The position numbers and the translations under genes are program-made. From contig NZ_QHHQ01000001.1 in the NCBI RefSeq assembly GCF_003258595.1, forward strand, positions 310,001 through 374,000: a DNA stretch of 64,000 bases, written 5' to 3'. Positions 39,103 through 48,840 of this stretch are shown piece after piece (positions within the stretch are counted from its first letter, which is position 1; each line of letters begins with the position of its first letter). The notes below the pieces were generated by a model, which saw only the letters and a program-made list of their open reading frames with translations, was not told the DNA's origin and ran no database searches. The DNA comes from Acuticoccus sediminis (GTDB lineage: Bacteria > Pseudomonadota > Alphaproteobacteria > Rhizobiales > Amorphaceae).

Positions 39103-39969
39103 TCAGTATGCGCGCTCCCCGAGAAGGCCGCGGGGGCGGAAGGTCAGGACGATGACGATGGCAAGGAAGCCGACCGCGCTCCGGTAGGACGGCGACAGCA
39201 CGATGAGCGACAGCTCCTCGCCGAGCCCCACCACCATGGCCCCCAGCACCGCGCCGGGGATCGAGCCCAGCCCGCCCACGACGGCCGCGGCGAAGATCGG
39301 CAGGATGAAGCGGAATCCGGTCAGGGGATCGATGGACGTCCCGACGCCGAGCAGCATGCCGCCCGCCCCGACGAGCCCCATGCCGAAGAACACCGTGAGG
39401 CGCCCGATCATGATCGGGTCGATGCCCTTCAGCTCGGCGAGCGCGGGGTTGTCGGCGACGGCGCGCATGGACTTGCCGATCCGCGTGTAGCGCAGCGCCA
39501 GGAAGACGGCGCTCATGAGGGCGAGCGCGAGGAGGAGGTTCTCCACCTGCTGCGGGCCGATCCGCACGCCCCAGATGCGCCAGTCGCGCACCAGCGGCAG
39601 GTCGTAGCCGCGCAGGTCGTTGCCGAAGATGAAGCGGACCGCGTTCTCCAGCACGATGGTGAGCGCGATGGAGGCGATCGCCGTCGTCAGTGCCCCGTGC
39701 GGACGGAGCGGACGCAGCGCGATCTCGTCGGACAGGACGCCGACGACGGCGGCGACGAGGAACGCCGCCACCAGCGAGACCTCCACCGGCAGCCCCAGGC
39801 CCACGTTGGCGGCGTAGCCCGCGAACGCGCCGATCGTGGCGTGCGAGGCGACCGCGAAGTTCGGGAAGCGCAGCACGGCGAAGATCGCCGTGAAGCCGAT
39901 GGCGGGGATCGCGAGAAGCGTCCCCATCACGATCCCGTTGACGATGAGCTGGGGCAGAAGGTCGAGCAT
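39103..39969 (-). CDS. livH: Branched-chain amino acid-type ABC permease (LivH)
   Basis: A 288-residue LivH-type permease with 'LIVNGIVMGTLLAIPAIGFTAIFAVLRFPNFA' at the N terminus, 'GKSMRAVADNPALAELKGID' (ATPase-contact loop) near residue 170, and 'PIFAAAVVGGLGSIPGAVLGA' near 225. The ATG (39969-39967) shares a base with the stop of the binding-protein gene (TGATG). It forms the transmembrane channel with LivM. Confidence 0.9.
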   Translation of the reverse strand: MLDLLPQLIVNGIVMGTLLAIPAIGFTAIFAVLRFPNFAVASHATIGAFAGYAANVGLGLPVEVSLVAAFLVAAVVGVLSDEIALRPLRPHGALTTAIASIALTIVLENAVRFIFGNDLRGYDLPLVRDWRIWGVRIGPQQVENLLLALALMSAVFLALRYTRIGKSMRAVADNPALAELKGIDPIMIGRLTVFFGMGLVGAGGMLLGVGTSIDPLTGFRFILPIFAAAVVGGLGSIPGAVLGAMVVGLGEELSLIVLSPSYRSAVGFLAIVIVLTFRPRGLLGERAY

Positions 39970-41171
39970 CAGGTCCGCGCGAACTCGACCGCTGCGCCGT
40001 CTTCGATCCGCTTGAAGAGGAACTGCGTGCCGGTGATGTCACCGATCTCGTTGAAGTCGCACGGCCCGCTGGCGCCGTCGTAGTTGACGCCATCGGCGAT
40101 GATCGGCAGCCCCTCCACGGCGCTGGAAACGACCGTCCCCTCGCCCTGGCTGATGGTGCGAAGGCTGTCCCTGATGGTGGCGCCCGTCGCCTCGCCGCCG
40201 GCCGCGATCGACAGGATCGCGAGGTTGGCGTGGTCGTAGCACTGCGCCGAGTAGGGATCGACCGTCTCGACGCCGAGGATCTTCTGCACGTTGGCGTAGG
40301 CAGGCGAGCCGATGGCAGGCGCCGGTTCCCAGGTGAAGATGCCCTCGAGGACGTCCGCGGGCAGCGCGTCGAGGACCGTCTGGTTCACCGCGTAGGCGGG
40401 GCCGATCAGCTTGCCCTCGTAGCCGGCCTGCCAGAGGTCGCGCAGCAGGACGGTCGTGTCCGCCGTGTAGCCGCCGAGGAGGATGAAGTCCGGCCCGGCA
40501 CGCATGATGGTGTCGACCTCGGAGCGGTAGGTGGACTTGTCCGCCTCGTAGATGAGGCTGTCCATCTCCATGCCGTTCTCGCCGGCGATGCGGGTCATGT
40601 TGTCGATGTTGCCCTGGGCGAACGGCGTTTGCGGGCCGATCCAGCCGAGGTGCGTCGCGCCCTGGTCGACCATGAAGGCGGTGGCGACGTCGTTCTGCAG
40701 CTTCGAGTTCGGCTGCGTGCGGGCGATGAAGCCCCGGTGCGGCAGCAGCGTGATCGAGTCGGCGCCCGACACGCAGAAGAGCATCGTCTGATTCTCCCAG
40801 CAGAGCGGCGCGACGGCGGTGGTCACCGAGGAGGCCCACGTGCCCATGATCGCCGCGACGCCGTCGACGTCGATCAGCTTGCGCGCGGCGCGCACCGCCG
40901 CTTCGGGCGAGGTCTGCGTGTCCTCCGAGACGAGGACGATCTCGCGGCCGAGGACGCCGCCCGCCTCGTTGACCGCGCCGATCACGCCGGCGATCGCGTC
41001 GCGCATGAAGGGGCCGTAGTTGCCGCCGACGCCGGTCAGCGGCGTCAGGGAGCCGAGCTTGATCGGCCCGCCCTGCGCGAAGGCGGCCTGTGCCCGCAGG
41101 ACCGCCGGGGCGGCAAGGCTCGCCGTCATACCGGCGAGGACGCTGCGACGTGTGGGACGGAACGTGGCCAT
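39969..41171 (-). CDS. Branched-chain amino acid-type ABC substrate-binding protein
   Basis: A 400-residue LivJ/LivK-type periplasmic binding protein with a Tat-like leader ('RPTRRSVLAGMTASLAAPAVLRAQA', residues 5-29). The mature protein shows 'IKLGSLTPLTGVGGNYGPFMRDAIAGVIGAVNEAGGVLGREI', typical of type I periplasmic folds. It sits first of the two permeases and after the two ATPases. The cysteines in 'APLCWENQTMLFCVSG' may form a periplasmic disulfide. Ligand unknown. Confidence 0.9.
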   Translation of the reverse strand: MATFRPTRRSVLAGMTASLAAPAVLRAQAAFAQGGPIKLGSLTPLTGVGGNYGPFMRDAIAGVIGAVNEAGGVLGREIVLVSEDTQTSPEAAVRAARKLIDVDGVAAIMGTWASSVTTAVAPLCWENQTMLFCVSGADSITLLPHRGFIARTQPNSKLQNDVATAFMVDQGATHLGWIGPQTPFAQGNIDNMTRIAGENGMEMDSLIYEADKSTYRSEVDTIMRAGPDFILLGGYTADTTVLLRDLWQAGYEGKLIGPAYAVNQTVLDALPADVLEGIFTWEPAPAIGSPAYANVQKILGVETVDPYSAQCYDHANLAILSIAAGGEATGATIRDSLRTISQGEGTVVSSAVEGLPIIADGVNYDGASGPCDFNEIGDITGTQFLFKRIEDGAAVEFART

Positions 41172-41182
41172 CTTGGGCTCCT

Positions 41183-41893
41183 TCAGTGCATTCCGAGGAA
41201 GGTGCGGCGAATGTCGGGATCGGCGGAGAGGGCGGCGCCCGTCCCCTCGGCGTGGTTGAGGCCGGCGGCGAGGATGTACGCGCGGTCGGCGATCTGCAGC
41301 GCGTCGAACGCGTTCTGCTCGACGAGGACGATGGCGACGCCCGACGCGGCGATCTCGCGGATAACCGCGAACATCTCGTGCGCCGCCTTCGGCGAGAGAC
41401 CGGCGGACGGCTCGTCCAGCAGCATCACCTGCGGCTCCACCATCATGCCGATCGCCATCGCGAGGAGCTGGCGCTGGCCGCCCGACAGCGTGCGCGCCGC
41501 GTCGTGCCGCTTCTCGGCGAGGACGGGGAAGCGGGCGAACAGGCCGTCGATGCGCGGGCGCACGTTGGCGCGGTCGACGGTGCCGCCGATCTCGAGGTTC
41601 TCGCGCACGCTCATCGTGGCGAAAACGTTCGACTCCTGCGGCACGTAGGCGACGCCGTTGGCGACGACCTCGCGCGGCTTCATGCCGGTCAGTTCCCTGC
41701 CGGCGAGGGTGACGTGGCCCTCGCGGACGGCGATCTGCCCCGTCACGGCCTTCAGCATCGTCGACTTGCCGGCCCCGTTGGGGCCGAGGACGGCGACGAT
41801 CTCGCCGGCGTCCGCCGTCATCGAGACGCCCTTCAGGATCATGTCCGCCCTGGTGTAGCCAGCGACCACGTTGTCGATCACGAGCGTCGTCAT
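41183..41893 (-). CDS. livF: Branched-chain amino acid-type ABC ATPase (LivF)
   Basis: A 236-residue ATPase: Walker A 'GPNGAGKST' near residue 36, 'YVPQESNVFATMSVRENL' Q-loop, signature 'LSGGQRQLL' near 137, Walker B 'VMLLDEPSAGLSP' near 157, switch His replaced by Gln in the usual LivF fashion ('LVEQNAFDAL'). The ATG at 41893 overlaps the livG stop (ATGA). Confidence 0.93.
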   Translation of the reverse strand: MTTLVIDNVVAGYTRADMILKGVSMTADAGEIVAVLGPNGAGKSTMLKAVTGQIAVREGHVTLAGRELTGMKPREVVANGVAYVPQESNVFATMSVRENLEIGGTVDRANVRPRIDGLFARFPVLAEKRHDAARTLSGGQRQLLAMAIGMMVEPQVMLLDEPSAGLSPKAAHEMFAVIREIAASGVAIVLVEQNAFDALQIADRAYILAAGLNHAEGTGAALSADPDIRRTFLGMH

Positions 41894-42654
41894 GCGCGCC
41901 GTCCGAGGTAGGCGTCCTGCACGCGCGCGTCGGAGGTCACCTCCTCGAAGGTGCCCTCCACCAGCGTCGTCCCGTCCGCCATCACGATGACCGTGTCGCA
42001 GAGCTCGGAGACGAGCGCCATGTCGTGCTCGACGATGAGGAAGGTGAGGCCGGTGGCGGCGAGTTCGCGGATGCGCTCGGCGATCTCCCGCCCCAGCGTG
42101 GGGTTCACGCCGGCGACCGGCTCGTCGAGCAGGATGAGCTTCGGCCCGCCCATCAGCGCGCGGCCGATCTCCAGCAGCTTCTTCTGTCCGCCGGAGAGAT
42201 CGGCCGACATGTTCGCCAGGACGTGGTCGAGCCTGAGGCGCCGGGCGATCTCGAACGCACGCTCGGCGAGCTCGCTCTCGCGCTTCAGCCAGCGGGACGG
42301 ATTGAAGAGCGCCGTGCCGAGCCGCTCGCCCGGCTGGTCGGCGCCATGAAGCAGCAGCGTCTCGAAGACGCTGAGCTTGGGAAAGCCGCGCGCGATCTGG
42401 AAGGTGCGCACCAGACCGCGCAGGCTGATCTCGTCCGGCCGCCACCCGGTGATGTCCGTCCCGTCGAAGGTGACGCGGCCGGACTGGGGCGGAATGACGC
42501 CGGAGATGCAGTTGAAGGCGGTCGTCTTGCCTGCCCCGTTGGGGCCGATGAGACCGGTGATGCTCCCGGTGGCGACGGTGAACCCCGCGCCGTTGAGGGC
42601 ACGGACGCCGTAGAAGTTCCGTGTCAGCCCCTCGACCGAGAGCAGGTCCGCCAT
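41890..42654 (-). CDS. livG: Branched-chain amino acid-type ABC ATPase (LivG)
   Basis: A 254-residue ATPase: Walker A 'GPNGAGKTT' near residue 37, 'LVRTFQIARGFPKLSV' Q-loop, signature 'LSGGQKKLL' near 154, Walker B 'LILLDEPVAGVNP' near 174, switch His in 'LIVEHDMALV'. The C terminus 'VQDAYLGRRA' is typical LivG. It is the first gene of livGF-binding protein-livHM-CDF, all leftward. Confidence 0.93.
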   Translation of the reverse strand: MADLLSVEGLTRNFYGVRALNGAGFTVATGSITGLIGPNGAGKTTAFNCISGVIPPQSGRVTFDGTDITGWRPDEISLRGLVRTFQIARGFPKLSVFETLLLHGADQPGERLGTALFNPSRWLKRESELAERAFEIARRLRLDHVLANMSADLSGGQKKLLEIGRALMGGPKLILLDEPVAGVNPTLGREIAERIRELAATGLTFLIVEHDMALVSELCDTVIVMADGTTLVEGTFEEVTSDARVQDAYLGRRA

Positions 42655-42797: not shown

Positions 42798-44123
42798 CTA
42801 CTTTCCGAATGCGTCGTCGCGCAGGGTCGAGACGGCGTTGGCGTGGGCGTCGAAGCCCTCGTAACGGGCAAACCGCTCCGCATGCGGGGCGAGGCGCGCA
42901 TAGCCGGCCTTCGTGACGTGGCCGATGGAGGTGAGCTTCAGGTAGTCGTGCACGCCGAGCGGCGAGCGCGTCAGGGCCGCCAGGTTGGTGGGCAGCACCG
43001 CGTTCGGGCCGAGCATGAAGTTGCCGATGGCGATGGGAGTGTGCTCGCCGAGCAGGATCTCGCCGGCGTTCCGGAGCGCGCCGAGATAGTCGAACGGTGC
43101 CTTGGAATGAACCTGCAGGTGCTCCGGCGCATAGTCGTTCACGAAGGCGATCGCCTCGTCCATCGTTTCGGTCAGGACGATGCCGCCGCGCGGGCCGCAC
43201 AGCACCGCCTGGGAAAAGCCGACGCGCTCCTCACCCATCTGCGCCCAGTAGCCGGGGATCGCGGCGAGCGCCTCCTCGACGACACGCTTCGAGGGGGTGA
43301 CGAGGTAGGCCGAGGAATCGGGGCCGTGCTCGGCCTCGTTGAGGAGATCGAGGGCGGCGACGCGGCCGTTCGCCGTCTCGTCGGCGATGACGATGGCCTC
43401 GGACGGGCCGGCCGGCGGCCCCGGATCGATCCTGTCCGCCAGGAGGCGCTTGGCGGCGACGATCCACGGGCTCCCGGGCCCGACCACCTTGACGCACTTC
43501 GGCACCGTCGCCGTCCCGTAGGCGACGGCCGCGATCCCCTGCGAGCCGCCGGCCTTGTAGACCTTCTCGACCCCGGCGAGGCGGGCGGCGACGAGAGTCG
43601 CGGCATCGACGCCGCCGTCCGGGCCCGGCGGGGTGATGATGACCAGCTGCGGCACGCCGGCGACGACCGCCGGCACCGCCGTCATCATCACCACCGACGG
43701 GAACGAGCCCTTGCCGCGCGGCACGTAGCAGGCGACCGACGGGATCGGCGTGACGCGCTCGCCAGCGAAGACGCCGGGCGACATCTCCTTCAGCCACATC
43801 TCCTCGGGCATCTGCGCCTCGTGGAAGCGGCGGACGTTGTCGATGGCGGTCTCGAGCGTCTCGATCATCTCCGGCTCGACGGCCTTGAAGGCGGCGTCGA
43901 AGTCCTCGGGCGTCGCGGCGATCGCGTCGGCGGTCACGGCGGCCCTGTCGAACTCGCGGCCGAACCGGGCGAGCGCCTCGTCGCCCTCCTCCCGGACGGC
44001 CGCGATGATCGGCGCGACCTTGTCGAGGAACGGGCCGAGGTCGCTCTCGGCTCGGCGCAACAGGGCGGCCCGCGCCTCGGCGGACAGTTCGGAGAGGGTG
44101 TGGACGCTGATCTGGGGCATCAT
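42798..44123 (-). CDS. Histidinol-dehydrogenase-family NAD dehydrogenase with altered zinc site
   Basis: A 441-residue HisD homologue. The catalytic Glu334-His335 pair ('YAPEHLQ') is kept, as are two zinc ligands, His266 ('EAEHGPDS') and His427 ('DAHANAV'). However, the ligand equivalent to E. coli Gln259 is Glu263, the one equivalent to Asp360 is Asn368, and the 'GTNHVLPT' region is 'GPNAVLPT'. A true histidinol dehydrogenase should not show these changes, and no other his genes are near. It is coupled (ATGA) to an ABC permease, and an SDR gene begins the operon. Sulfopropanediol 3-dehydrogenase (HpsN) is a known HisD relative with this kind of context; that assignment is a hypothesis. It is presumably a cytoplasmic NAD-dependent alcohol-to-acid oxidase. 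Confidence 0.82.
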   Translation of the reverse strand: MMPQISVHTLSELSAEARAALLRRAESDLGPFLDKVAPIIAAVREEGDEALARFGREFDRAAVTADAIAATPEDFDAAFKAVEPEMIETLETAIDNVRRFHEAQMPEEMWLKEMSPGVFAGERVTPIPSVACYVPRGKGSFPSVVMMTAVPAVVAGVPQLVIITPPGPDGGVDAATLVAARLAGVEKVYKAGGSQGIAAVAYGTATVPKCVKVVGPGSPWIVAAKRLLADRIDPGPPAGPSEAIVIADETANGRVAALDLLNEAEHGPDSSAYLVTPSKRVVEEALAAIPGYWAQMGEERVGFSQAVLCGPRGGIVLTETMDEAIAFVNDYAPEHLQVHSKAPFDYLGALRNAGEILLGEHTPIAIGNFMLGPNAVLPTNLAALTRSPLGVHDYLKLTSIGHVTKAGYARLAPHAERFARYEGFDAHANAVSTLRDDAFGK

Positions 44124-44920
44124 TTGGACTTCAGGAAAATGTCGAGACCGACGAGCCAGTCCAGCAGCGCCACCGCGACGAGCGCGATGACGATGTAGAC
44201 GACCGACACGGCCGCGAGGTCCGGTGTGATCACGCTGCGGATGGAGTTGTAGATCTCCACCGGCAGCGTGACGGTGCGCGAGTCCGTCAGGAAGAGGCTG
44301 ACCAGGAACTCGTTGAAGGCGAGGATGAACATGAGGAGCGCGCCGGTGATGACGCCGGGCGTCACCGCGGGCAGCGTGACGGTGAAGAACGCCTGCACCG
44401 GCGGCGCGCCGCAGCTCGCGGCGGCGTTCTCCAGCTCCGGGTCCATCGCGTTCACGGACGCCGCGACGGACCAGATCATGAAGGGCAGGTTGATGACGCA
44501 GAGCGCGAGGCCCACCGGCCAGAGCTGGCCGAGGATGCGCACCTCGCCGAACATCATCATCATCGAGAGGCCGGAGACGACGAGCGGGATCGTGAACGGG
44601 AGCAGCAGGATCACCTGCAGTGCCGTGCGGGCGCGCAGTCGGTAGCGCGACAGGGCGATCGCCGCCAGCGTCCCCACCGGGATCGCGATGACGGTGCAGA
44701 TGAGCGACACGTAGAGGCTGCGCCAGAACGCGGCCTTGAACGAGGCGAGCTGCCAGAGCTCGGAGTACCAGCGCAGCGAGAAGCCCTGCGGCGGGAAGGC
44801 GATGATGTCGCCCGACGTGAACGAGGCGCCCACCACGATGACGGTCGGCAGGCTCAGCATCAGCACGCAGAACCCCGTCACGCCCCAGAGGAAGACGCCC
44901 TTGCTGCCGGAGAGCTTCAT
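44120..44920 (-). CDS. ABC transporter permease (PotC-like)
   Basis: A 266-residue permease with six spans ('GVTGFCVLMLSLPTVIVVGASFT' first) and an EAA-type loop 'LENAAASCGAPPVQAFFTVTLPAVTPG' near residue 170. It overlaps the upstream permease and the downstream HisD-like gene, both by four bases. It forms the channel of the second PotABCD-type importer; substrate inferred only from the two dehydrogenases in the operon. Confidence 0.9.
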   Translation of the reverse strand: MKLSGSKGVFLWGVTGFCVLMLSLPTVIVVGASFTSGDIIAFPPQGFSLRWYSELWQLASFKAAFWRSLYVSLICTVIAIPVGTLAAIALSRYRLRARTALQVILLLPFTIPLVVSGLSMMMMFGEVRILGQLWPVGLALCVINLPFMIWSVAASVNAMDPELENAAASCGAPPVQAFFTVTLPAVTPGVITGALLMFILAFNEFLVSLFLTDSRTVTLPVEIYNSIRSVITPDLAAVSVVYIVIALVAVALLDWLVGLDIFLKSK

Positions 44921-45855
44921 CGCCGCCCCCCGCGGAAGCCGAGCGTTCCGGTGCCGGCCATCATGAAGACCGCGGCGACGATCACGCTGCCGATGAGCGT
45001 CAGCAGGATGGAGAGCGCCGCGCCGAGGCCCGCATTGGAGATCTGGAAGAACGAGTCGTAGATGGCGCTGGCGAAGAAGTCCTGCGTGCCGCCGCCCAGG
45101 ATCTCCGGCATCGCGAAGTCCGTCAGCGTCAGCGTGAAGACCACCACCGACGCGCCGATGAGGCCCGGCGCGGCCATCGGCAGGACGACGTGGCGGAAGG
45201 TCGACGGCCAGCGGGCGCCCAGCGACTCGGAGGCGAGTTCCACCTCCTCGCCGATCGCCGAGAGAGCGGGGATGATGAGGAGCACCGCGAACGGCAGCAT
45301 GTACTGGACGAGGCCGAAGAGCACCGTCGGGTACGCGAAGAGGAAGTCCTGCGCCGGCAGGCCCACCGCCTTCAGCGCCGAATTCAGGAGCCCCTCGCGC
45401 CCCAGGATGATGAGCCATCCGTAGGCGCGCACCACCTGGCCGATGAAGAACGGCAGGAACAGCGCCACCAGCAGGAACTTGCGCGCCCACGCCGAGCCGG
45501 TGCGCACCAGGAGGTACGCGTAGGGGAAGGCGAGCAGCAGCGTCACCAGCGTAACGATGCCCGCCCCGCCCAGGGTGCGGGCGAGCACCCGCCACGTCAC
45601 CGGGCGCTCCAGCGCCGTGGCGTAGTTGGCGAGGGTGTACGCGTCGCCGAGGCGGTAGGTCGCGAGGTTCAGCTCGTGGAGACTCGTCTCCAGCATCTGG
45701 CCGAGGCCGATGACGAGGATTCCGACGAGGATCAGCGCCGGGGCGAGGAAGGCCCACCCCAGCGCGCCGCGCAGGGGCGCCGGCCACACGATGCGCGCCA
45801 GCATCTCGACGGCGTCGAGAAGCGCCCAGCGCGCCTTTTGGACGGCACCCGCCAT
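44917..45855 (-). CDS. ABC transporter permease (PotB-like)
   Basis: A 312-residue permease with an N-terminal cytoplasmic extension of about 30 residues, six spans, and the coupling loop 'EEVELASESLGARWPSTFRHVVLPMAAPG' near residue 205. 'FLPFFIGQVVRAYGWLIILG' near 135 is typical of PotB-like proteins. It lies 7 bases after the binding-protein gene and overlaps the next permease (ATGA). Confidence 0.9.
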   Translation of the reverse strand: MAGAVQKARWALLDAVEMLARIVWPAPLRGALGWAFLAPALILVGILVIGLGQMLETSLHELNLATYRLGDAYTLANYATALERPVTWRVLARTLGGAGIVTLVTLLLAFPYAYLLVRTGSAWARKFLLVALFLPFFIGQVVRAYGWLIILGREGLLNSALKAVGLPAQDFLFAYPTVLFGLVQYMLPFAVLLIIPALSAIGEEVELASESLGARWPSTFRHVVLPMAAPGLIGASVVVFTLTLTDFAMPEILGGGTQDFFASAIYDSFFQISNAGLGAALSILLTLIGSVIVAAVFMMAGTGTLGFRGGRR

Positions 45856-45862
45856 CGAACCG

Positions 45863-46936
45863 TCAGCCCTGGAAGATCTCGTTGAACTTGGCGAACCAGA
45901 TCGGCTGGTTCTCCACGAGCACCGGCGAGGGCACCGATACGAGCTTCTCGAAGTCCTCCGGCCTGGTCGGGTAGGACGGATCGCCGACGAGGTCGGCCGG
46001 CGGCTCGATCCCCGGACGCACCGGCGGCAGGCCGAGCGCGCCGCACCACGCCTTCTGCGCCTCCTCGGAGAGGGCGAAGTTGACGAAGTCCTTCGCGGCC
46101 TGCTCCTCGTTCGCGGGCAGGCCCTTGGGGACCCAGAGCCCGTCGGTGTCGACCTTGCAGCCCTCCTTCGGGACGGTCCAGGCGACGTCGATGCCGGACT
46201 GCTTGGCCGCGCGCGCGTTCACCGAGATGGTGCAGGCGAGGTCGATCTCGCTGTTCTGGAACCAGGAGGTGAAGTCCGGGTCCTCGCCGAGCAGCGGCTC
46301 GTTCGCCTTCAGCTTGCGGTAGAACTCGTAGCCCGGCTCCATGTTGTCCGGGATGTCCTCGAACGTGCCGCCGCCGGCGATCACCGCAATCGGGTTGAAG
46401 CCGATGCCGTCGTCGTAGAGCGCGACGCGGCCCTTGAACTTCGGGTCGAGCATGACCGTCCAGCTCTCCGGCGCACCGTCCGGGAACGCCTCGGGCCGGT
46501 ACGCGCAGACGTAGACGTAGGCGTAGGTGTTGACGAGCGGCCAGCCCTCGAGCCCGACCGGCTTGGCGGACGGGAGCAGGCCCTCGAGGTTGGGAAGGTC
46601 CGAGAGGTCGACCGTCACGCCGCGCAGCGCCGAGATCGTGGCGTTGGTGGTCGTGTCCCAGTTGACGTGGATGGGCGGCACGCGGCCCTGGTCCACGGCG
46701 GCCCAGATCTTCGGCTTGATCTCGTTGTCCTCGGTGAAGTCGAGGCGCACCGGGATGCCGGTCTTCTCGGTGAAGGGGTCGGCGACGCCCGACTTCAGCG
46801 CATCGCCCCACGCACCGCCCCAGGCGCGCACGATGAGCTCCGACGGCTTGTCCTGCGCTCTGAGGATCGACGGCATCGCGAGGGTCGCGCCGAGCGCGGC
46901 ACCTCCCTTGAGGGCAGTCCGGCGGGAGAAGGTCAT
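45863..46936 (-). CDS. ABC transporter substrate-binding protein (PotD-like, Tat leader)
   Basis: A 357-residue periplasmic binding protein with a twin-arginine leader ('FSRRTALKGGAALGATLAMP', residues 3-22). Mature features are 'LIVRAWGGAWGDALKSGVADPFTEKTG' and 'YDDGIGFNPIAVIAGGG'. It has two Cys in 'ALCTIS'- and 'EGCKVD'-like positions. Its ligand is unknown. If the operon handles a sulfonated or plain polyol, this is the specificity component. The ATG at 46936 overlaps the ATPase stop. Confidence 0.9.
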   Translation of the reverse strand: MTFSRRTALKGGAALGATLAMPSILRAQDKPSELIVRAWGGAWGDALKSGVADPFTEKTGIPVRLDFTEDNEIKPKIWAAVDQGRVPPIHVNWDTTTNATISALRGVTVDLSDLPNLEGLLPSAKPVGLEGWPLVNTYAYVYVCAYRPEAFPDGAPESWTVMLDPKFKGRVALYDDGIGFNPIAVIAGGGTFEDIPDNMEPGYEFYRKLKANEPLLGEDPDFTSWFQNSEIDLACTISVNARAAKQSGIDVAWTVPKEGCKVDTDGLWVPKGLPANEEQAAKDFVNFALSEEAQKAWCGALGLPPVRPGIEPPADLVGDPSYPTRPEDFEKLVSVPSPVLVENQPIWFAKFNEIFQG

Positions 46937-48066
46937 GAAGGCAGCTCCTTGTGTCCGGTGGTGGTGGTGGTCTCGGCGTCCGGGAAGGTGAAGAGGTCGC
47001 GTGCGGCGAAGCCGAGGGTGACGGCCGCCCCCTCGGGTATCGACCGGTGCACGGCCGGGTCGTGGTCGAAGACGAAGATCGTCGCGCCGCCGAGCCCCTC
47101 GACAGTGACGGCGTAGACCATCCGGTCGCCCTCGAAGATCTGCTGCGCCACGGTGCCTGTCACGGTGTTCTCGTGCCCGAGCGGGCCTTCGGAGATCGCC
47201 ACCTGCTCGGCGCGCAGGGTGCACTCGACGCGGTCGCCGGGCGACAGCGTGCCGGTGCCGCGCGCGGTGAGCCGCGTTCCCCCGGCCTCGACGGTCACCG
47301 CCGCCCCGTCCGCCTCGACGACGCGCGCGGGGAAGATCGAGGTCACCCCAACGAAGGTCGCGACGAACCGGTTCTGCGGCGCCCGGTAGATGGCCTGCGG
47401 CTCGTCCGCCTGCTGCACCACGCCGTGGTTCATGACGACGATCTGGTCGCTCATGACGAGCGCCTCGCGCTGGTCGTGGGTGACGTTGATGGTGGTGACG
47501 CCGAGGTCCTGCTGGATGCGGCGGAACTCGAGCTGCATCTCCTCGCGCAGCTTGCGGTCGAGCGCGGAGAGGGGCTCGTCGAGGAGCAGCAGATCCGGGT
47601 CGAACACCAGGGCGCGGGCGATGGCGACGCGCTGCTGCTGGCCGCCAGAGAGCTCGTGCGGGCGCCGGTCGCCGAGCCCGTCGAGCCGCACCAGCGACAG
47701 GAAGCGCTCCACCCGCTCGGGAATCGACGCCGGGTCGAAGCGGCGCATCTTGAGCGGATAGGCGACGTTCTGCGCCGCCGTCATGTGCGGGAAAAGGGCG
47801 AGCCGCTGGAACACCATGCCGATGGAGCGGCGGTAGGCGGGCATGCGCTTCACGTCCGCGCCGTTGATCCGGATGGCCCCGGCGGTCGGCCGCTCGAACC
47901 CGGCGATCATGCGCAACAGCGTGGTCTTGCCGCAGCCGGAGGGGCCGACGATCGTCAGGAAGGCGCCGCGCTCGACCGAGAAGGTCGCCTCGCGCACGGC
48001 GAGCGAGTCGCCGAAGGCCTTCGAGACGCCGTCGATCTCGACCATTCGCTCCATCACGTCCGCCAT
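46933..48066 (-). CDS. ABC transporter ATP-binding protein (PotA-like)
   Basis: A 377-residue ATPase: Walker A 'GPSGCGKTT' near residue 42, 'MVFQRLALFPHMTAAQNV' Q-loop, signature 'LSGGQQQR' near 138, Walker B 'LLLLDEPLSALD' near 158, switch His 'NVTHDQREA', and a TOBE domain ('CTLRAEQVAISEG') at the C terminus. It starts 3 bases after the SDR stop and overlaps the binding-protein gene, so the six-gene operon is continuous. Confidence 0.93.
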   Translation of the reverse strand: MADVMERMVEIDGVSKAFGDSLAVREATFSVERGAFLTIVGPSGCGKTTLLRMIAGFERPTAGAIRINGADVKRMPAYRRSIGMVFQRLALFPHMTAAQNVAYPLKMRRFDPASIPERVERFLSLVRLDGLGDRRPHELSGGQQQRVAIARALVFDPDLLLLDEPLSALDRKLREEMQLEFRRIQQDLGVTTINVTHDQREALVMSDQIVVMNHGVVQQADEPQAIYRAPQNRFVATFVGVTSIFPARVVEADGAAVTVEAGGTRLTARGTGTLSPGDRVECTLRAEQVAISEGPLGHENTVTGTVAQQIFEGDRMVYAVTVEGLGGATIFVFDHDPAVHRSIPEGAAVTLGFAARDLFTFPDAETTTTTGHKELPS

Positions 48067-48069
48067 CGC

Positions 48070-48840
48070 CTACAGCGCCGCCAGGGTGCCGCCGTCGACG
48101 TAGACGATCTGACCCGTCATGTACGCCGACGCCTCGCTGGCGAGGAAGACGGACACGCCGACGAGGTCGTCGAGTTCGCCGAAGCGGCGCATCGGGATCT
48201 TGCCGAGCATCGCCGCCTGCCAGTTCCGGCTCTTGTAGAACCCCTCCGTCATCGCCGTGCGGAAGTAGCCGGGGCCGATGGCGTTGACGCGGATCGTCGG
48301 CGCCCACTCCGCCGCCAGCGCCCGCGTCATGCCGAGGATCCCGGACTTCGACGCGGTGTAGGGCGTCGCGGTCGGGATGCCGACCGCCGAGGTGAGGGAG
48401 CCGAGGTTGATGATGGCGCCGGGCCGCTCGTCCGCGAGCAGCGGCCGGGCAAATGCCTGCGCCACGAAGAACGCGGCCTTGAGGTTGGTGCCGACGATCT
48501 TCTCCCACAGCGCCTCGGAGACGTCCGTCGACGGCGCAACCTCCTCCACCCCGGCATTGTTGACGAGGATCGTCGGGACGATGCCGGTGACCGCGAGCGC
48601 CTCCAGATGGGCGGCGAACGCGTCCGGCCGGGTCACGTCGGCAGCGATCGCGTGGCAGGTGCGGTGGAGCTTTTCGATGCGCGCGCGGGTCTCGGCGAGA
48701 CCGTCCGCCGAACGGGCGACCGCGACCACGTCGGCGCCCGCCTCGGCAAGGCCGATGGCGATCGCCTGTCCGATGCCGCGGCTGGCGCCGGTCACCAGCG
48801 CGGTGCGGCCCGCCAGACTGAATCGTTCTGTCCCTCTCAT
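48070..48840 (-). CDS. Short-chain dehydrogenase/reductase
   Basis: A 256-residue classical SDR: cofactor motif 'TGASRGIGQ' near residue 17, 'NNAG' near 92, catalytic Ser in 'NLGSLTSAVG' near 145, and YxxxK in 'PYTASKSGILG' near 158, ending in the usual 'TGQIVYVDGG'. The Asp/Arg pattern after the first strand ('VAVARSADGL') hints at NADP or mixed use but is not decisive. It is the first gene of the importer/HisD-like operon. SDRs such as HpsP oxidise or epimerise the C2 hydroxyl of dihydroxypropanesulfonate; a similar role here is a hypothesis. The start at 48840 was chosen over 48861 and 48927, which lack family resemblance before it. Confidence 0.88.
   Translation of the reverse strand: MRGTERFSLAGRTALVTGASRGIGQAIAIGLAEAGADVVAVARSADGLAETRARIEKLHRTCHAIAADVTRPDAFAAHLEALAVTGIVPTILVNNAGVEEVAPSTDVSEALWEKIVGTNLKAAFFVAQAFARPLLADERPGAIINLGSLTSAVGIPTATPYTASKSGILGMTRALAAEWAPTIRVNAIGPGYFRTAMTEGFYKSRNWQAAMLGKIPMRRFGELDDLVGVSVFLASEASAYMTGQIVYVDGGTLAAL

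Follow-up and report, generated by a model that had tools for sequence, protein, structure and literature searches.

What does a protein resembling histidinol dehydrogenase (HisD) do at the end of an operon that begins with a short-chain dehydrogenase/reductase (SDR) and encodes an ATP-binding cassette (ABC) importer? The question is raised by a gene, here called hisX, at positions 42798 to 44123 (minus strand) of a 64,000-nucleotide stretch of the Acuticoccus sediminis genome (contig NZ_QHHQ01000001.1; hereafter the window). On ORF coordinates, family searches, alignment, a tree and a fold model, HisX was assigned as a dehydrogenase paralogue of the HisD superfamily, annotated as hisD in relatives. 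An earlier note on this DNA had proposed that the operon imports and oxidizes a polyol, possibly a sulfonated one. As judged from sequence comparison, HisX represents a real and widespread lineage within the HisD superfamily that is defined by an exchange of metal ligands and carries a wrong annotation, and this lineage most likely feeds histidine catabolism.

HisX matched PF00815 with 455.2 bits over residues 24 to 432. In the alignment to HisD, the catalytic pair is kept as Glu334-His335, together with the zinc ligands His266 and His427, and the two other ligand positions are changed, Gln to Glu263 (codon at 43335 to 43337, minus strand, from ORF coordinates) and Asp to Asn368 (codon at 43020 to 43022, minus strand, likewise). 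Both the retained pair and the two changed ligands had been read in this way in the earlier note. According to PMC11382572, the zinc binders of HisD and HpsN are Gln, His, Asp and a His of the other subunit. The Glu and Asn exchange was present in 81 of 81 sequences, comprising the window and 80 relatives. Since the Glu is part of one of the six peptide patterns used to collect those relatives, this set is biased; a second set was drawn without the Glu pattern by searching 289 genomes of the class at E ≤ 1e-100. Matches were obtained in 18 of these genomes, that of the window included, and Glu and Asn were present in all 19 loci other than the window's, at identities down to 41%. A Clostridia record (L125) likewise carries both residues. 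Gln and Asp were found in all 18 non-HisX rows examined (10 HisD, 5 HpsN-like and 3 further paralogues). The exchange leaves the net charge the same.

A further position, His in the HisD and HpsN rows, is Ala375 in the window (codon at 42999 to 43001, minus strand, from the alignment), and corresponds to His367 in E. coli HisD numbering. Across the 81 HisX sequences, this position holds Ala in 43, Cys in 23, His in 11 and Asn in 4, making it a candidate specificity position as far as the alignment goes. The motif change reported earlier, GTNHVLPT to GPNAVLPT, was real only in part: NAVLPT does replace NHVLPT, although Ala375 is not invariant, and the T-to-P change is not distinctive because the genome's true HisD reads GPNHVLPT. 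Fifteen positions combine a conservation of 97% or more among 73 HisX rows with a difference in 9 or more of the 10 HisD rows, and several of these surround the metal and the loop that bears His126 in HpsN (Arg136, Gly139 and Phe141). A predicted monomer model confirmed only the fold, with residues 375 to 392 under pLDDT 50.

The possibility that HisX is simply a redundant biosynthetic histidinol dehydrogenase was considered next to the other paralogues of the genome. HisX passes the hisD model TIGR00069 (438.8 versus a cut-off of 243.8 bits), as such an enzyme would, but so does an HpsN-like protein of the same genome (412.5 bits), and the model therefore does not discriminate. PF00815 was found in five places of the 7.76-Mb genome, three of them full-length genes and two short matches. 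The full-length genes are HisX, the HpsN-like gene (L003) and a canonical-looking hisD (L001), whose adjoining gene, recognized without a family search, we take to be murA. HisX is thus not the only hisD homolog of the genome, and its reading as a paralogue distinct from biosynthetic HisD held. In a tree of 93 rows (quick IQ-TREE, SH-aLRT support only, ligand columns included), the HisX rows and L125 formed one clade with a support of 100, outside both HisD and HpsN. IQ-TREE issued a long-branch warning for the HisD, HpsN, L148 and L125 rows, so that the order of the groups is unsure. HisX is moreover accessory: when 8 genomes of the genus, among them that of the window, were compared, 5 had the gene. 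Its relatives extend to Enterobacterales, Pseudomonas and the one Clostridia record. A redundant biosynthetic role is hardly credible on these grounds. The hisD name, which the model accepts and plasmid annotations use, makes the histidine-biosynthesis annotation wrong for those genomes.

We then considered whether the operon imports and oxidizes a sulfonated polyol such as dihydroxypropanesulfonate (DHPS). A HisD-like enzyme beside an SDR does recall HpsN with HpsO, and HpsO (8wwf) was among the PDB matches of the window SDR, as the tenth and more distant one (148.1 bits). The NMT1-type binding protein of some relatives also lies just below the cut-off of the aliphatic-sulfonate family SsuA (162.1 versus 163.5). 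However, the sulfonate motif of HpsN, GRY(A/S)H with His126 (PMC11382572), was absent: all 81 HisX sequences have Phe in the column of CpHpsN His126 (the window reads RGKGSF), and each of the 81 has Phe or Tyr in place of the Lys that follows the Asp ligand in HpsN. The equivalents of HpsN Gln248, Asp352 and Lys353 in the window are Glu, Asn and Phe. HisX scored higher against a HisD structure (4gic, 263.9 bits) than against the R-DHPS dehydrogenase 8wwe (217.9) or CpHpsN (194.2), and it is 34% identical to the genome's own HpsN-like protein. The latter has 8wwe as its best solved match (555.5 bits) and follows cuyA (536.4 versus a cut-off of 450) and cuyB (257.4 versus 190), the three genes lying in a row on contig C11 (140000 to 159900; L142:8235-11831). 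Genes of the cysteate breakdown type are present in the genome, but they adjoin the HpsN-like paralogue rather than HisX, and the cysteate and DHPS functions of the genome likely sit at that locus. No sulfolyase was found among the six operon proteins by family searches or among the scanned neighbor representatives of relatives. A sulfonate substrate for HisX was set aside on the motif test, the tree and the separate cuyA-cuyB-hpsN-like locus, and we regard it as very improbable. From the proposal of the earlier note there remained an operon built for import and oxidation.

The operon comprises six minus-strand genes, identified from ORFs and family searches, which encode in order of transcription an SDR, an ABC ATPase, a binding protein, two permeases and HisX, as had been described. 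The SDR (48070 to 48840, start picked among alternatives) has KduD/gluconate 5-dehydrogenase as its nearest NCBIfam model, below cut-off. The ATPase (46933 to 48066) is of the PotA type, passing the potA subfamily cut-off with 362.6 versus 355.6 bits. It is followed by a periplasmic binding protein (45863 to 46936; start from ORF coordinates) of the SBP_bac_8 family that is distantly PotD-like by family searches, a PotB-like permease (44917 to 45855, from ORF coordinates and family searches) and a PotC-like permease (44120 to 44920; start read from ORF coordinates). From ORF coordinates, three junctions are 4-nucleotide ATGA overlaps, including that between the stop of the last permease and the start of HisX, in agreement with the translational coupling to the importer proposed earlier. 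The importer itself, previously called PotABCD-type, is better termed Pot-like: the ATPase was the sole pass of a Pot model, the permeases and binding protein falling far under the Pot equivalog cut-offs. Solved PotD-type structures show a weak relationship to the binding protein (best E value of 8e-11). This binding protein is 80 to 88% identical in 13 related HisX loci and 73% in one further. Downstream of HisX on the same strand, at 39969 to 42654, lies an apparent ABC set of the branched-chain-amino-acid type (two ATPases and a binding protein).

The neighborhoods of 86 HisX loci were compared, comprising the 80 relatives, five plasmid records and the window. Identity thresholds were applied and many stretches are short, so that the counts are lower bounds. 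An SDR was found in 36 loci, a kinase-like protein in 25, an NMT1-type binding protein in 24, a medium-chain dehydrogenase/reductase (MDR) in 19, a Pot-type binding protein in 17, a flavin mononucleotide (FMN)-dependent oxidase in 12, a HutC-like repressor in 7, a HisC-like transaminase in 6, and HutU and HutH in 2 each, hutH and hutU being near HisX in L039 and L049. The SDR recurs with both importer types. Five further plasmid records were inspected: four rhizobial ones carry HutC, kinase-like and MDR genes, and the Clostridia record carries none of these. Where the context of the relatives is readable, it suggests histidine utilization (Hut). The ATPase upstream of HisX in gammaproteobacteria had been a candidate amino-acid transporter, but Pfam and NCBIfam show an NMT1/SsuA-type system. 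This NMT1-type cluster is plasmid borne in L086 (Klebsiella, between insertion sequences) and L087 (Pantoea).

The association with HutC was examined with the equivalog model TIGR02018 (cut-off of 220), with which 12 candidate repressors were scanned. Ten operon repressors exceeded the cut-off: L008 (246.8), L063 (292.6), L064 (289.1), L088 (250.3), L089 (254.8), L090 (261.3), L123 (279.9), L124 (264.0), L126 (289.8) and L127 (271.4). The HutC-like gene of L013 is 95% identical to the best HutC query. As background, 65 places in the window's genome matched the model and one passed, and 1 of 14 control genomes contained a pass. The hutC gene follows the SDR in L008 and L088 and the MDR in L089, L090, L124, L126 and L127; it lies upstream of the HisC-like gene in L123 and beyond the FMN oxidase in L063 and L064. 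The HutC-bearing loci are spread over three branches of the tree, and the window HisX falls in a 17-row set (support of 95) with the HutC-linked L008, L013 and L088.

Operator sites were sought with the HutC-type 12-mer TTGTATATACAA, whose core, TGTA-N2-TACA, is given in PMC12977541. With at most one mismatch, TTGTATATACAA was present in 13 of 49 loci of group A, compared with 0.45 in dinucleotide shuffles (maximum of 2), and in 0 of the 41 other loci (0.65 expected); group A omits three Ala375 loci (L071, L076 and L079), which are counted among the 41. Sorted by residue, 10 of 42 Ala375 loci had a box at this threshold, the remaining three hits being plasmid loci. The box of L086 adjoins ars genes, not the HisX operon, and is probably due to chance. 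Within a stretch of 320 bases at the importer start, taken from estimated start codons, a box with no more than one mismatch occurred in 9 of 44 loci (random stretches of these loci gave an expectation of 0.28) and one with no more than two in 15 of 44 (0.59 expected), the boxes of L063, L064 and L044 lying outside this stretch. The loci with boxes are related and hence do not count as independent events.

The orthologous operon of Sinorhizobium meliloti links HisX to data on expression. In strain 1021, pSymA 209.0 to 221.1 kb encodes in order a HisC-like protein, SDR, importer, HisX, MDR, HutC, kinase-like protein and FMN oxidase. These genes, SMa0387 to SMa0402 (hisC3, ABC genes, hisD2 and a GntR gene), correspond to L089 and to L168 of strain 1021, and the start of hisD2 (SMa0398) implied by a distance in PMC12542648 fits HisX within tens of bases. 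According to PMC2912261, a tolC mutation lowers hisC3 11.4-fold, SMa0391, SMa0392, SMa0394 and SMa0396 8.3- to 23.5-fold, hisD2 10.6-fold, the GntR gene SMa0402 8.4-fold and hutU, hutG and hutH 7.7- to 11.5-fold, and hisABC1C2DEFGHIZ are up in the same mutant. The authors there describe the function of the ABC system as unknown, and their suspicion is that NtrC expression is reduced. This expression pattern shows co-behavior with nitrogen catabolism, not a substrate. The gene hisD2 is listed in the expression table of that paper and in a motif table of PMC12542648, and reporter assays on sRNA include the binding-protein gene SMa0392 (PMC8844928). No description of the function of the HisX paralogue was recognized in the PMC open literature searched, of which the papers were available in part; the passages obtained from PMC5929573, PMC4447125 and PMC8775594 do not concern the HisX gene.

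Together, these contexts led us to a tentative pathway, whose chances we put just short of even, in which an imported imidazole-bearing C3 alcohol is oxidized to imidazolelactate and then passes through imidazolepyruvate and histidine into Hut. HisX would oxidize the terminal CH2OH in two NAD-dependent steps to imidazolelactate, the favored substrate being 3-(imidazol-4-yl)propane-1,2-diol or a close relative. The metal would be held by Glu263, His266, Asn368 and His427, with catalysis by Glu334-His335. By analogy, the imidazole may sit on the metal where the HpsN substrate has its sulfonate, the diol giving imidazolelactate as sulfopropanediol gives sulfolactate with HpsN. The SDR, and in relatives also the MDR, might oxidize or re-reduce C2 so that both stereoisomers are handled, as HpsO and HpsP do for DHPS. 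In relatives, the FMN-dependent alpha-hydroxy-acid oxidase would turn imidazolelactate into imidazolepyruvate, from which the HisC-like transaminase would make histidine, to be degraded via urocanate by the Hut enzymes under HutC. Hydroxy-acid oxidase, HisC-like transaminase and Hut enzymes would form a sensible succession of steps by way of imidazolelactate, imidazolepyruvate, histidine and urocanate. The clade, the ligand exchange, the operon and the linkage of relatives to HutC, the boxes, the transaminase and the oxidase were observed; the substrate and the order of the steps are our inference from family chemistry.

The same Hut linkage could be explained by HisX acting as a catabolic L- or D-histidinol dehydrogenase, with histidinol imported by the polyamine-like ABC system and oxidized directly to histidine. 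HisX shares the superfamily and fold of HisD, and histidinol is polyamine-like in charge. Such a direct route, however, needs no FMN oxidase (12 of 86), HisC-like transaminase (6), SDR (36) or MDR (19), and the zinc-ligand pair and the His367 position, which HisD keeps, are changed in HisX. We consider histidinol an unlikely substrate and retain the imidazole C3 alcohol.

Several observations weigh against that pathway. Among the 86 loci, 79 are without HutC in the stretches examined (many of them short), the regulator of L087 fails TIGR02018 and is not HutC, and boxes were found in 0 of 38 HisX loci with Cys, His or Asn at position 375. In S. meliloti, many other nitrogen genes fall too in the tolC mutant, indicating broad nitrogen status (PMC2912261). 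Many loci have seemingly unrelated neighbors, and the HisX family may span several substrates. The kinase-like protein, a label based on a predicted fold, has no place in the proposed pathway. At the window itself, the operon lacks hutC, no HutC box was found at two or fewer mismatches in the 18 kb around it, and neither the whole window nor four congener stretches contained the 10-mer core with no more than one mismatch. The genome had no kinase-like match with the one query used, and its best FMN-oxidase match is only 41% identical.

These absences from the window's surroundings would also fit a shift in substrate, in which the operon, having lost hutC and the downstream enzymes, would in this genus serve a different, non-imidazole compound, either a polyol or an amino alcohol. 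In line with this, a congener (L121) has, of the set, only the SDR and HisX in 19.5 kb, and the accessory distribution in the genus (5 of 8 genomes) points the same way. The binding protein, on the other hand, shares 86% identity with its counterpart in L008 and 83% with those in L013 and L088, all HutC linked, and 13 group-A rows, HutC-linked ones included, do not differ from the window at any of the 14 active-site-region positions compared. We regard the shift as improbable, to about the same degree as histidinol, and infer that the reduced operon, without hutC, kinase, MDR or HutC box, keeps the imidazole substrate.

The one hutC of the genome above the cut-off is on another contig, beside a HisC-like gene and about 9 kb from hutU. 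This HisC-like gene shares 46% identity with the closer of two queries and 40% with the S. meliloti gene. The window contained no match to TGTATATACA. The hutC neighborhood (contig C2, 920500 to 940400; L139) is unusual, containing hutU, apparent amino-acid-type ABC genes, a CaiB-like CoA-transferase, an HMG-CoA-lyase-like gene, the HisC-like gene and hutC, and an exact TGTATATACA lies near the divergent starts of the CaiB-like CoA-transferase and HMG-CoA-lyase-like genes.

Other recurrent neighbors of HisX were also recorded. The kinase-like protein is a hypothetical protein of about 440 residues beside or near HisX in 25 of the 86 loci (L069:1285-2688, L063:9265-10575, L089:13177-14397 and others). 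Scanning the L069 member gave nothing in Pfam to E 1e-4 and nothing in NCBIfam at E 1e-40, and its profile had no credible sequence match in the PDB. A model of the L063 protein resembled APH and methylthioribose-kinase folds (best E value of 9e-5, TM score by query of 0.30 to 0.46), and an HGDxHxxN motif agrees with such a fold. Clusters containing DMFA2_C (N,N-dimethylformamidase-like; representatives L049 and L083 scanned) lie near HisX in L036, L042, L045, L049, L052, L056, L057, L061, L077, L082 and L083, possibly with a different substrate for the HisX concerned. A Cys375 HisX is found beside a gamma-glutamyltranspeptidase cluster in L031, L041, L055, L062, L070, L072, L075, L078, L081 and L084 (L062 scanned). 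The DMFA2_C, gamma-glutamyltranspeptidase, Pst-like and PGI/PGM neighbors of cluster representatives gave no coherent pathway.

HisX is novel as a variant of the HisD superfamily, and the substrate assignment is a proposal. With two first-shell metal ligands swapped without exception, HisX offers a natural experiment on how coordination governs substrate choice in the HisD fold. If the pathway is true, histidine catabolism gains a further entry route, and the pathway points to nutrients not found described in the literature searched. A broader version, possible but distinctly more doubtful than the pathway itself, is that this unrecognized Glu/Asn-ligand family, HutC controlled in many members, starts a new pathway that allows bacteria of soil, sea and plants to draw on imidazole C3 alcohols as a nitrogen source. 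Imidazolyl-propanediol, imidazoleglycerol or similar compounds would then be leak products of histidine biosynthesis, used via imidazolelactate, imidazolepyruvate and histidine.

Compared with HisD, HisX keeps the fold, the catalytic Glu-His, the two His zinc ligands (equivalents of His262 and His419), Glu422 and Ser241. It differs in the Q-to-E and D-to-N ligands, in the replacement of H367 by A, C, H or N, in GPGS for GPGN and in Arg136, Gly139 and Phe141 of the loop that bears His126 in HpsN, and its neighbors in annotated loci are importers and catabolic-type enzymes, with no his operon. The logic of the operon resembles that of HpsN/HpsO/HpsP, given the related SDR and MDR: like HpsN (PMC11382572 and PMC11131964), HisX is a paralogue of HisD with an SDR next to it, joined by an MDR in 19 of 86 loci, and by analogy it would carry out a four-electron CH2OH oxidation. 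Unlike HpsN, it has neither GRY(A/S)H nor the Lys that follows the Asp ligand there, falls in another clade and is accompanied by ABC import, where the Cupriavidus hps cluster has a major facilitator superfamily uptake gene. The operons of relatives share the repressor family and box of HutC-controlled hut systems, whose description in the HutC section of PMC5343134 names hut enzymes and transporters but no HisD paralogue; the window operon is without the box. The S. meliloti operon SMa0387 to SMa0402 differs from that of the window by its hutC, MDR, kinase-like, FMN oxidase and HisC-like genes, but it is orthologous to the HisX operon, and S. meliloti makes the proposal testable now.

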